A DNA stretch of 34,508 nt, taken from contig JAJZVO010000046.1 of assembly GCA_021845665.1 (NCBI GenBank), positions 1 to 34,508 on the forward strand, in the 5' to 3' direction. Source of the stretch: Bacteroidota bacterium (lineage in GTDB: Bacteria; Bacteroidota; Ignavibacteria; Kryptoniales; JAKASW01). Both the position numbers and the translations under genes were made by a program. Shown in pieces: positions 4,995-7,499 of this stretch. The notes under the pieces are model-generated. The model worked only from the letters and a program-made list of their open reading frames with translations. It had not been told where the DNA came from and did no database searches. Every line of letters begins with the position of its first letter. Positions within the stretch are counted from its first letter, which is position 1.

Positions 4995-6107
4995 TCAGAG
5001 TGCATCTTTGAGAGCCTTGAGACACAATTTAATATTCTTCTCATTTGAAGTGTAGCCCATCAAACCGATCCGCCAGATTTTCCCGGCAAGCTGCCCGAGC
5101 CCGGCGCCGATCTCGATATTATACTTGTTAAGAAGGTGGTCTCTCACCGCAGCTTCGTTGACTCCATCCGGAACGGTGACAATCGCGAGTTCCGGGAGGC
5201 TCGACTCGCCGGTGACAAAGCTTTTGAGTCCGATCTTCTCGAGTCCCGCGCGGAACATCGCGGCGTTCTTTTCGTGACGCGCCCACGCTTTATCGAGTCC
5301 TTCCTCCTGCACGAGAAGAAGCGCCTCGTGAAGGCCGTACAGCGCGTTGATGGGAGCGGTGTGGTGGTACGTCCGTTTCGCGCCGCTCCAGTAACTCAGA
5401 ATGAGGCTGACATCCATGAACCAGCTGCTGACTTTTGTCTTTCTTTTCTTCACATAGTCCACCGCCCGATCGTTGAAAGTGATCGGCGAAAGACCGGGCG
5501 GGCACGACAGGCACTTCTGGCTTCCTGAATAAACGACGTCCAGCTCCCAGTCATCCACCTTAACGGGTATTCCGCCGAACGAAGTTACGGTGTCGGCAAT
5601 CGTGAGACATCCGTACTTGTGCGCGACCTTCGAGAGCGCAGCTATATCCGAGCGAGCGCCGGTCGAAGTCTCTGCGTGAACGAAGGCGACGACTTTCACA
5701 TCTTTGTTCTTGGACAGCGTGTCCTCGAGTTTTGCCGGATCGATCGGCTGGCCCCATGGGGCATCGACGACGACCGGGATTCCGCCGTGGCGTTCGACCA
5801 TTTCACGTATGCGTCCCCCGAAGGCGCCGTTCACGCAGACGGCGACTTTCATTCCGGGTTCAACCATGTTGGCAACGGCCGCCTCCATGCCGAGCGAGCC
5901 CGGACCTGAGATCGGGAACGTCACTTCGTTCTTCGTCAGGAACGTGTCCCTGAGGAGAACCTTCAGCTCGTCCATCATGCGTATGAATTCCGGGTCGAGG
6001 TGGCCGATTGTCGGACGCGCCATTGCCTGCAGAACTCTTGGATGAACGTTCGATGGGCCGGGCCCCATGAGGATCCTGTCGGGAGGACGAAAGGAATTAA
6101 TTTTCAT
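4995..6107 (-). CDS. Class V alanine/serine-glyoxylate aminotransferase
   Basis: A 370-residue PLP enzyme of the AGXT/serine-glyoxylate family. It starts with the family hallmark LMGPGPSNVHP. SGPGSLGMEAA near residue 68-77 binds the PLP phosphate, Asp172 in IADTVTSFGG contacts the ring nitrogen, and Lys198 in YSGSQKCLSCPPG forms the internal aldimine. An Arg near the C-terminus (KIWRIGLMG) is placed to hold the substrate carboxylate. It would convert glyoxylate plus alanine or serine to glycine plus pyruvate or hydroxypyruvate. I chose ATG 6107 because AGGAG sits 6 bases upstream; an in-frame start at 6155 adds 16 residues that overlap the DUF559 remnant and look unrelated. Its place beside a HOGA-like aldolase, which would make glyoxylate, supports glyoxylate as the amino acceptor. 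Confidence 0.88.
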   Translation of the reverse strand: MKINSFRPPDRILMGPGPSNVHPRVLQAMARPTIGHLDPEFIRMMDELKVLLRDTFLTKNEVTFPISGPGSLGMEAAVANMVEPGMKVAVCVNGAFGGRIREMVERHGGIPVVVDAPWGQPIDPAKLEDTLSKNKDVKVVAFVHAETSTGARSDIAALSKVAHKYGCLTIADTVTSFGGIPVKVDDWELDVVYSGSQKCLSCPPGLSPITFNDRAVDYVKKRKTKVSSWFMDVSLILSYWSGAKRTYHHTAPINALYGLHEALLLVQEEGLDKAWARHEKNAAMFRAGLEKIGLKSFVTGESSLPELAIVTVPDGVNEAAVRDHLLNKYNIEIGAGLGQLAGKIWRIGLMGYTSNEKNIKLCLKALKDAL

Positions 6108-6132
6108 GTGCATCTCCTGGTCTTTTTCAGCT

Positions 6133-6552
6133 TTAGAGACAGCCGTCAACATCACCCTCTCCCAAACCCTCTCCGTTCAAGGGAGAGGGGGCTTGCGACG
6201 CAGACAACCGAGCGGAAGCGTGTTCGAGTATATTCAGAATAACACCATCGGTGCTCGACATGATTTCATTATTGCTGAATCTCAAAACTTCGAATCCATG
6301 TTCACGCAGCCAACTGTCTCTATCGGCGTCTTTCTTCTTTTGTTCACCTTCATAGTGCTGGCGGCCGTCGGCTTCAACGATCAGCTTTTTTTCAAAGCAG
6401 ACAAAGTCGGCGATGAAAGGCCCGATTCGCTGCTGTCTTCTAAACTTCAGACCTTCCACTTGTTTACCTCAAAGAACTTTCCACAACTTCTTCTCCGAGT
6501 CGGTCATGCGCTTCCGGAGACCGCGAGCGATAGGAGTCAGTCGGCTCTTCAT
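6133..6552 (-). pseudogene. DUF559 endonuclease-like gene, broken by an in-frame TGA
   Basis: From ATG 6552, with GGAGGA 8 bases upstream, the frame encodes 139 residues of a DUF559 protein, a small restriction-like (Vsr-related) nuclease fold. Codon 28 (6469-6471) is TGA where an Arg (CGA) is likely. Before the stop is MTDSEKKLWKVL; after it come EGLKFRRQQRIGPFIADFVC, KLIVEADGRQH (catalytic-type E-x-D region), and the helix DRDSWLREHGFEVLRF. The C-terminus ends in PSPLNGEGLGEG, encoded by a palindrome. Re-initiation at GTG 6459 would give a 108-residue piece lacking the N-terminal helix. The gene sits between inverted GGGAGAGG-type palindromes (6151-6190 and 6562-6587) and interrupts an otherwise metabolic operon, which suggests insertion. 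Confidence 0.75.
6151..6190. repeat. Palindromic left end of the DUF559 cassette
   Basis: ATCACCCTCTCCC (6151-6163) leads into CCCTCTCC-GTTCAAG-GGAGAGGG (6167-6189), an 8-bp hairpin. It encodes the PSPLNGEG tail of the DUF559 protein on the other strand. The same motif, ATCACCCTCCC with a smaller hairpin, appears in opposite orientation at 6562-6587, so the pair resembles terminal inverted repeats. Confidence 0.55.
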
Positions 6553-6561
6553 TCCGATGAT

Positions 6562-6587
6562 CCTCCTTCAATTAAAGGGAGGGTGAT
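6562..6587. repeat. Palindromic right end of the DUF559 cassette
   Basis: CCTCCTT (6562-6568) pairs with AAGGGAGG (6575-6582), and the minus strand from 6587 reads ATCACCCTCCCTTTAATT. This is the inverted counterpart of the 6151-6190 end. It also contains the GGAGGA ribosome-binding site of the DUF559 gene. I see no clear target-site duplication just outside either end. Confidence 0.5.
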
Positions 6588-6617: not shown

Positions 6618-7499
6618 CTATTCAAGCAGTCCGGCAGTCTTTAGAATCGATTTCATATTCTCCCGTTCCCGGTCGCCGAGCGGCGCAAGCGGGCTTCTCG
6701 GCTCACCGCCGAAATAACCGAGCATATCCATGGCGGCCTTCAAGCCCGGTACGCCGTACTTTGAAGTCACTGCTTTGTTGACGGGAATCAGCTTCTTTTG
6801 AAGTGCCGAAGCCTCCTGATGCCGGCCGGCTTCAAAGAGCCGCTGAACCTCCACGCATTCTTCCGCCGCGATGTTGGCGAGCGCAAGTATGCCGGCCGTT
6901 GCACCAGCCGCAAGCCCGGGGTATAAGACGGATGCTGTGCCGACGATGACGGAGAAATCTTTGGGAACGGATGCGATCATCTCGGCGGTCTGTGCCGCAT
7001 TCTCAGAGCTGTTCTTGAGTCCGGCGATGTTCCCGTGTTTCGCGAGTTCAGCAACCGCGTCTGCTTGAATATCAACACCCGTAAACTTCGGCACGTTATA
7101 AATGACAATAGGAATCTTCGTTTTGTCTGCCACTTCAGTGAAGTATCTCACGAATGCAGCACCGTTCATCTGTCCCTTGTAGAAAGATGGAGTCAGAACC
7201 AGCGCGTAATCGGCACCGCGATCCGCAGCGTCGTTAGAAAGCGCAACGGCCTCCTTAATCGAATCCGATCCTGTCCCGGCGAGGAGCGACATTCCTGAAG
7301 CAAGACTCTTCTTTGCCGCCTCGACCAATTTCAATTTCTCGTCACGCGTGAGGTACGCGCTCTCGCCGTTGGAACCCATGACGACGTAGCCGCTGAGACC
7401 GCTCTTGTTCCAGCGTTTGATATTGTCCGCAAGTTTGTCGTAGGCCACCTCTCCACTAAAGAAAGGAGTGGTGACGGGAGGCATTATACCTTTGATCAT
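6618..7499 (-). CDS. 4-hydroxy-2-oxoglutarate aldolase-like (DHDPS/NAL superfamily)
   Basis: A 293-residue TIM-barrel class I aldolase. The Schiff-base Lys162 is in IAGLKNSSEN, the catalytic Tyr134 in IVIYNVPKFTG, and the carboxylate-binding loop is GSNGE (42-46). Among superfamily members it resembles animal HOGA1 most: PVTTPF near the start, TPSFYKGQM around 103-111, and the C-terminal KYGVPGLKAAMDMLGYFGG with R-x-PL. HOGA splits 4-hydroxy-2-oxoglutarate into pyruvate and glyoxylate, the last step of hydroxyproline breakdown in mitochondria. The neighbours (PRODH upstream, glyoxylate aminotransferase and ALDH4 downstream) fit that job far better than lysine biosynthesis. GAGGAAA precedes the ATG by 7 bases. 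The superfamily is certain; HOGA activity is inferred from motif similarity and context. Confidence 0.8.
   Translation of the reverse strand: MIKGIMPPVTTPFFSGEVAYDKLADNIKRWNKSGLSGYVVMGSNGESAYLTRDEKLKLVEAAKKSLASGMSLLAGTGSDSIKEAVALSNDAADRGADYALVLTPSFYKGQMNGAAFVRYFTEVADKTKIPIVIYNVPKFTGVDIQADAVAELAKHGNIAGLKNSSENAAQTAEMIASVPKDFSVIVGTASVLYPGLAAGATAGILALANIAAEECVEVQRLFEAGRHQEASALQKKLIPVNKAVTSKYGVPGLKAAMDMLGYFGGEPRSPLAPLGDRERENMKSILKTAGLLE

Follow-up and report, generated by a model that had tools for sequence, protein, structure and literature searches.

DUF559 nuclease genes are linked to intrastrand triplex motifs across bacterial phyla

The window (the whole 34,508-nt stretch of Bacteroidota DNA analysed here) carries a DUF559 nuclease gene on the minus strand at positions 6133–6552, which runs for 140 codons, including the stop, from an ATG at 6552–6550 to position 6133. 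The gene is broken, as the initial annotation had stated: codon 28 is a single in-frame TGA (6469–6471 on the plus strand), downstream of which the frame is open again from a GTG at 6459. With the TGA read through or masked, the product matches PF04480 (E = 6e-38), and the masked protein scores 129.5 bits against a curated cut-off of 20.6. Two congeneric species (G009 and G010) have an intact nuclease at the same site, and because dN/dS between the window copy and these copies is still about 0.08–0.09, the stop looks recent.

On the side of a neighbouring aminotransferase gene lies a palindrome at 6149–6191 (minus strand), with arms at 6179–6189 and 6167–6177 and an additional G-rich third block that faces outward at 6153–6163. 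It is the sole strong match in the window to a cross-phylum repeat model (covariance model R1; 42.4 bits, E = 1.3e-9), and it encodes the tail of the protein, PSPLNGEGLGEG, as had been proposed. The opposite end, CCTCCTTCAATTAAAGGGAGGGTGAT (6562–6587, plus strand), is a degenerate motif whose outer block also faces outward and pairs with 6151–6159 as an inverted 9-mer; the scan of the window gave no covariance-model match there. The whole cassette (6151–6587, without strand) is thereby bounded by perfect inverted 9-mers, ATCACCCTC at 6151–6159 and GAGGGTGAT at 6579–6587. We rejected the 9-mers as evidence on their own, because the same scan yields other 9-nt pairs, within chance in 1 kb, whereas the 6149–6191 end exceeds chance by the covariance model. 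The two inverted palindromic ends described at the outset are accordingly one strong end, one degenerate end and a real pair of 9-mers, but not two matching full-length ends.

Both host genes that flank the cassette lie on the minus strand and were named from reading their sequences: a class V aminotransferase-like gene downstream (4995–6113), for which the listed ORF, with its start at 6155, extends into the palindrome, and a dihydrodipicolinate synthase/aldolase-like gene upstream (6618–7499). They are 504 bp apart in the filled allele. In seven relatives that have neither DUF559 nor the cassette at this site, six of the genus and one of the class, the two genes are adjacent and 92–202 bp apart, so the empty sites that the initial annotation proposed looking for do exist in close relatives. 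The insertion is intergenic; it separates genes that are neighbours in relatives, as the phrase ‘interrupted metabolic operon’ had implied, but breaks neither of them. One empty site (G012; L040, ~1330–1495) contains another repeat-like stretch, AAGCTCCAAGTTCCAAAC ... TTGGAGCTT, which is unlike the palindrome family described below. Further copies of the cassette had also been anticipated; a search of its own genome returned no near-identical second copy. The original observation, a DUF559 gene in a cassette with palindromic ends, is confirmed, and its weight comes from the family rather than from the window copy alone.

The palindrome is a known repeat, variously called BoxC, the PIT element or the intrastrand triplex motif (TM). 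Such repeats, on record since the 1990s, are widespread and mark unstable loci. A TM consists of a C/T arm, a loop, a G/A arm and a third, G-rich block, and the 6149–6191 end has the pyrimidine arm, the purine arm and a third block of the G.GC and T/A.AT type. The same three blocks, CCCTCTCCC - GGGAGAGGG - GGGTGAGGG, make up the TMECO repeats of Holder et al. (2015, PMC4666352), and E. coli TMs have been shown by others to form a triplex in vitro (PMC4666352). At the loci studied here, the third block obeys the triplex code, with C facing G and T facing T or A, rather than copying the stem. It matches its own stem at 0.903, compared with 0.790 ± 0.008 when stems are swapped between loci (0 of 1,000 reach the observed value), and among asymmetric stems the mirror (triplex) direction prevails by 66 to 1, on which ground we rejected a direct duplication of the stem. 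A reading as a terminator is not supported either, because it cannot explain the match between third block and stem and because the ends often lie within reading frames. Across phyla, variation in the stem is tracked by the third block, which suggests that the three-block structure is maintained as such. Kinship between sequences can inflate covariation counts, although the size of the effect makes it unlikely that kinship explains all of it.

Such ends recur at DUF559 genes elsewhere. All four DUF559 genes in the genome of the window have palindromes on both sides, with different stems (one side being degenerate in the window copy). Across 89 DUF559 loci from Kryptoniota relatives, Nitrospirota, Omnitrophota, Chloroflexi, Rickettsiales, Bacteroidota, Patescibacteria and others, a C/T-arm hairpin was present in at least one 160-bp flank of 79, compared with 25 of 1,279 control windows (2.0%), and the best flank hairpin was far stronger at the 89 loci than in the control windows. 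The peptide GEGDVDGC, which served as a query for L068–L127, is partly TM-encoded, a possible bias, and for this reason the sets fetched by Pfam give the cleaner numbers: 32 of the 33 loci obtained by Pfam profile only have a C/T-arm hairpin, and a replication in 200 Pseudomonadota genomes found one at 27 of 29 DUF559 loci and in 3 of 261 control windows (1.1%; P = 3e-33). Two Pseudomonadota loci (2/29) fail the hairpin test, and a copy on a Pseudomonas plasmid has no palindrome by eye. We have next to no doubt that the linkage between DUF559 and TMs is real, and the idea of a small selfish unit of nuclease and palindromes, perhaps homing-like, holds far beyond the window, for most DUF559 genes across phyla. 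Each component was already known, and our reading of the open-licence literature found no report that joins them. Local arrangements vary: one DUF559 gene sits amid several near-identical tandem TMs (L003, 1200–2100; G000:C97), and another is directly flanked by near-perfect inverted repeats of about 50 bp (L300; G307:C31).

Not all cassettes are intergenic. The reading frame extends at least 100 residues beyond the nuclease domain in 16 of the 89 loci, and the Pfam hosts of in-frame DUF559 are HsdR, UvrC, HsdM, MetH and MmeI-type enzymes, together with a GHMP kinase (which, from reading its sequence, we take to be IspE), an M14/AstE-like enzyme and a solute-binding protein. Roughly half of the genes that host DUF559 in frame encode restriction–modification subunits. 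TMs that lie in frame are translated as a PSPLNGEGLGEG-like peptide. We rejected an identity as inteins, because Pfam searches of ten fused ORFs returned only host and DUF559-type nuclease domains, with no self-splicing domain around the nuclease. A solo TM also lies in frame in a type III Mod-like methylase gene (L008, 1485–1530; G000:C117), where it encodes HPDPLRKGEG and has no DUF559 near it.

Three allele states occur at one place in uvrC within a single genus: empty, one TM pair, and TM pair–DUF559–TM pair, all of them in frame. UvrC proteins that carry the nuclease are 96–98% identical to those that lack it, and TM-only forms are 99% identical to empty ones. In metH, the linker ahead of the B12 domain is occupied by DUF559 in 2 of 38 genomes and by a TM remnant in 1; both kinds have genus mates with an empty linker, and the empty alleles that were inspected have 39 residues there. 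At both genes, the linkers of filled and empty alleles are too different to place an exact junction or target-site duplication, and the patchiness in uvrC could reflect many losses of one old insertion rather than gains. On Azospirillum plasmids, the DUF559 locus is present in 7 of 7, with no empty site.

Twelve residues are invariant in 61 copies of the enzyme (T14, E17, W21, F34, Q37, D46, F47, E57, D59, G60, H63 and D72). A structural prediction (pLDDT 89) matched NGO0050 of N. gonorrhoeae (3hrl), itself a DUF559 structure, best among PDB entries, followed by I-Bth0305I (3r3p, E = 9e-5), with 1vsr at E = 0.02; the model and the alignment display the fold and catalytic residues of the EDxHD and Vsr enzymes, and DUF559 is predicted to be a stand-alone nuclease of the Vsr/EDxHD homing-endonuclease fold. 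A DUF559/Vsr-like fold is also common to mitoribosomal proteins of Toxoplasma and Tetrahymena (PDB 9i05, 9g6k and 6z1p). Five comparisons gave dN/dS values of 0.08–0.12 (a sixth, between copies that hardly differ, was uninformative), and judged by these substitution patterns the nuclease is under purifying selection. A Vsr-like active site and fold would also suit a host enzyme for repair or for particular DNA structures, beneficial rather than selfish and kept near the unstable DNA that it processes. Caulobacter VsrA, a DUF559 protein, has a Vsr-like active site with spacing close to that of the invariant residues and has been linked to the DNA-damage response (PMC12907096). Such a host role is nevertheless very improbable in view of the patchy presence of the gene among species with 96–98% identical host proteins, its in-frame residence in unrelated genes and the divergence of the copies within each genome.

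Same-site copies in different species are 67–94% identical (77–80% among three species at the window site, 67% in metH and 94% in ispE), and the next DUF559 in the genus after the window-site copies stands at 56%. Copies within one genome are mostly 28–50% identical (38–50% for the four in G000), the exceptions being a pair at 82% in one genome and at 64% in another; near-identical copies at several sites per genome, as in insertion sequences and MITEs, were not found. DUF559 lineages thus appear to stay at their site, and because same-site copies are alike and within-genome copies mostly distant, a site-resident, homing-like selfish gene fits better than an insertion sequence. A true transposon, with DUF559 carrying the TM–nuclease–TM unit to new locations and TM pairs serving as its MITEs, would account for the many insertion sites in unrelated genes and for closely spaced inverted TM pairs, one of which has a nuclease remnant in its spacer. 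We consider it distinctly improbable, however: of the six genomes compared, five contain no pair of copies more than 64% identical, target-site duplications were not seen (filled and empty linkers differ strongly), and the enzyme folds like a hydrolytic nuclease rather than one that transfers strands. PD-(D/E)XK enzymes alone do not join strands. The initial interpretation is therefore borne out for a nuclease gene with its own palindromic ends, and is weaker in its version of a transposon or a MITE carrying its own nuclease, with intragenomic copying invisible in most genomes.

Genome content points the same way as position. A covariance-model survey of 61 relatives found TMs in 36 of 37 genomes with DUF559 and in 11 of 24 without it (P = 4e-6), an excess that holds up under within-family permutation (P = 4e-4). 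Among the 110 TMs listed in DUF559-bearing genomes, 21 have a DUF559 gene at most 500 bp away, against an expectation of about 0.1%. Most TMs in the genomes of relatives have no DUF559 nearby, and none of 56 TM loci on viral contigs does, so TMs may also spread by other means. Palindromes that occur without DUF559, which the initial annotation had held to count against it, are hence the majority. The link withstands this, since TMs and DUF559 are associated many times more strongly than expected by chance, by position as well as by genome content. TMs might instead be independent repeats in which DUF559 lands as a passenger or parasite, without any role for the nuclease at TMs, and is gained and lost by ordinary recombination between direct TM repeats. 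The solo TMs fit this account, as do the TM-only alleles of uvrC and metH and the direct repeats of about 35–230 bp, containing TMs, that lie on both sides of DUF559 in 28 of 83 loci. It leaves unexplained why one nuclease family is consistently flanked across phyla, why TM-rich genomes are those with DUF559 and why the nuclease is under purifying selection, and we regard it as unlikely.

E. coli K-12 has a DUF559 gene, ycjD, which occurs in 3,365 of 5,426 E. coli genomes, nearly always singly. In MG1655, TMECO 9 (PMC4666352) lies 168 bp downstream of ycjD. The spacer between the TM pair beside the gene matches the ycjD 3′ end at 35 of 39 positions (score 58, compared with a shuffled maximum of 24), and on this similarity it holds a putative truncated second copy of ycjD, that is, a scar. 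Elsewhere in K-12, TM pairs are inverted and their spacers short; in four of five inspected away from ycjD in MG1655 (L157–L161), the third blocks face inward and the spacers are short, and the spacers of L159 and L160 clearly resemble each other. The ycjD site between sapF and fabI (L152 and L153) offers no clean empty site in strains without ycjD, because these carry the eefRABC efflux operon there. The exchange of ycjD and eefRABC is described in PMC12817139, in passages that do not mention TMs.

The best explanation, to which we give a probability of roughly 0.6, is a selfish, homing-like nuclease that resides at its site and whose TM ends can remain without it. Linkage, triplex-code covariation, co-occurrence, in-frame residence, three allele states and purifying selection were each observed, and from them we infer how the element might behave. 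The nuclease would recognise or act at TM DNA, and repair of the break from a cassette-bearing allele would let the cassette keep its place and spread among alleles. New sites would be founded only rarely, and deletion of the nuclease would leave TMs as scars or MITE-like pairs. Loss could follow simply from the TM-containing direct repeats and would leave a single TM unit, the state found in uvrC of G062. DUF559-bearing segments are among the recombination hotspots in a study of Legionella evolution (PMC12308824), which is compatible with the homing-like model. The window cassette would then probably be a single, decaying representative of an element that is widespread and has two parts, a nuclease and triplex palindromes. 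More tentatively, and with the balance of our judgement against it, these elements could form a bacteria-wide selfish class in which a homing-type nuclease uses H-DNA palindromes as recognition ends and homes into alleles of ordinary genes with neither intron nor intein, because the insert keeps the frame and can be translated, with the BoxC/PIT repeats of E. coli and others as its scars.

DUF559 becomes a candidate partner enzyme for the decades-old orphan BoxC/PIT/TM family, and a partner in K-12, ycjD, makes the origin and instability of TMs testable in the laboratory. The link would also give DUF559 a function and would show nuclease cassettes living inside essential genes without splicing. 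Holder et al. never found mobility genes near TMs, and ycjD and DUF559 go unmentioned there (PMC4666352); the open-licence literature on TMs likewise ties no enzyme to these repeats and reports neither the nuclease link nor in-frame cassettes nor cross-phylum covariation of stem and third block. The REP/RAYT system (REPINs and BIMEs) resembles the present one in having few enzyme genes between palindromes and many solo or paired palindromes elsewhere. Its enzyme is an HUH (Y1) transposase between GTAG-tagged palindromes, whereas here the enzyme is DUF559, a PD-(D/E)XK nuclease, and the repeats have a triplex third block, a consensus without GTAG and often an in-frame position inside proteins. 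EDxHD homing endonucleases such as I-Bth0305I, and Vsr, share the fold and active-site pattern of DUF559, and one DUF559 gene has already been placed in the EDxHD homing-endonuclease family (PMC9403480); unlike those homing endonucleases, DUF559 lies outside introns and inteins, is flanked by triplex palindromes and would home only on the model proposed above. Rickettsia palindromic elements are likewise palindromic repeats in frame within protein genes, but, as described, their product is a short conserved peptide and no nuclease (PMC10969869), whereas the TMs described here bracket a nuclease gene.
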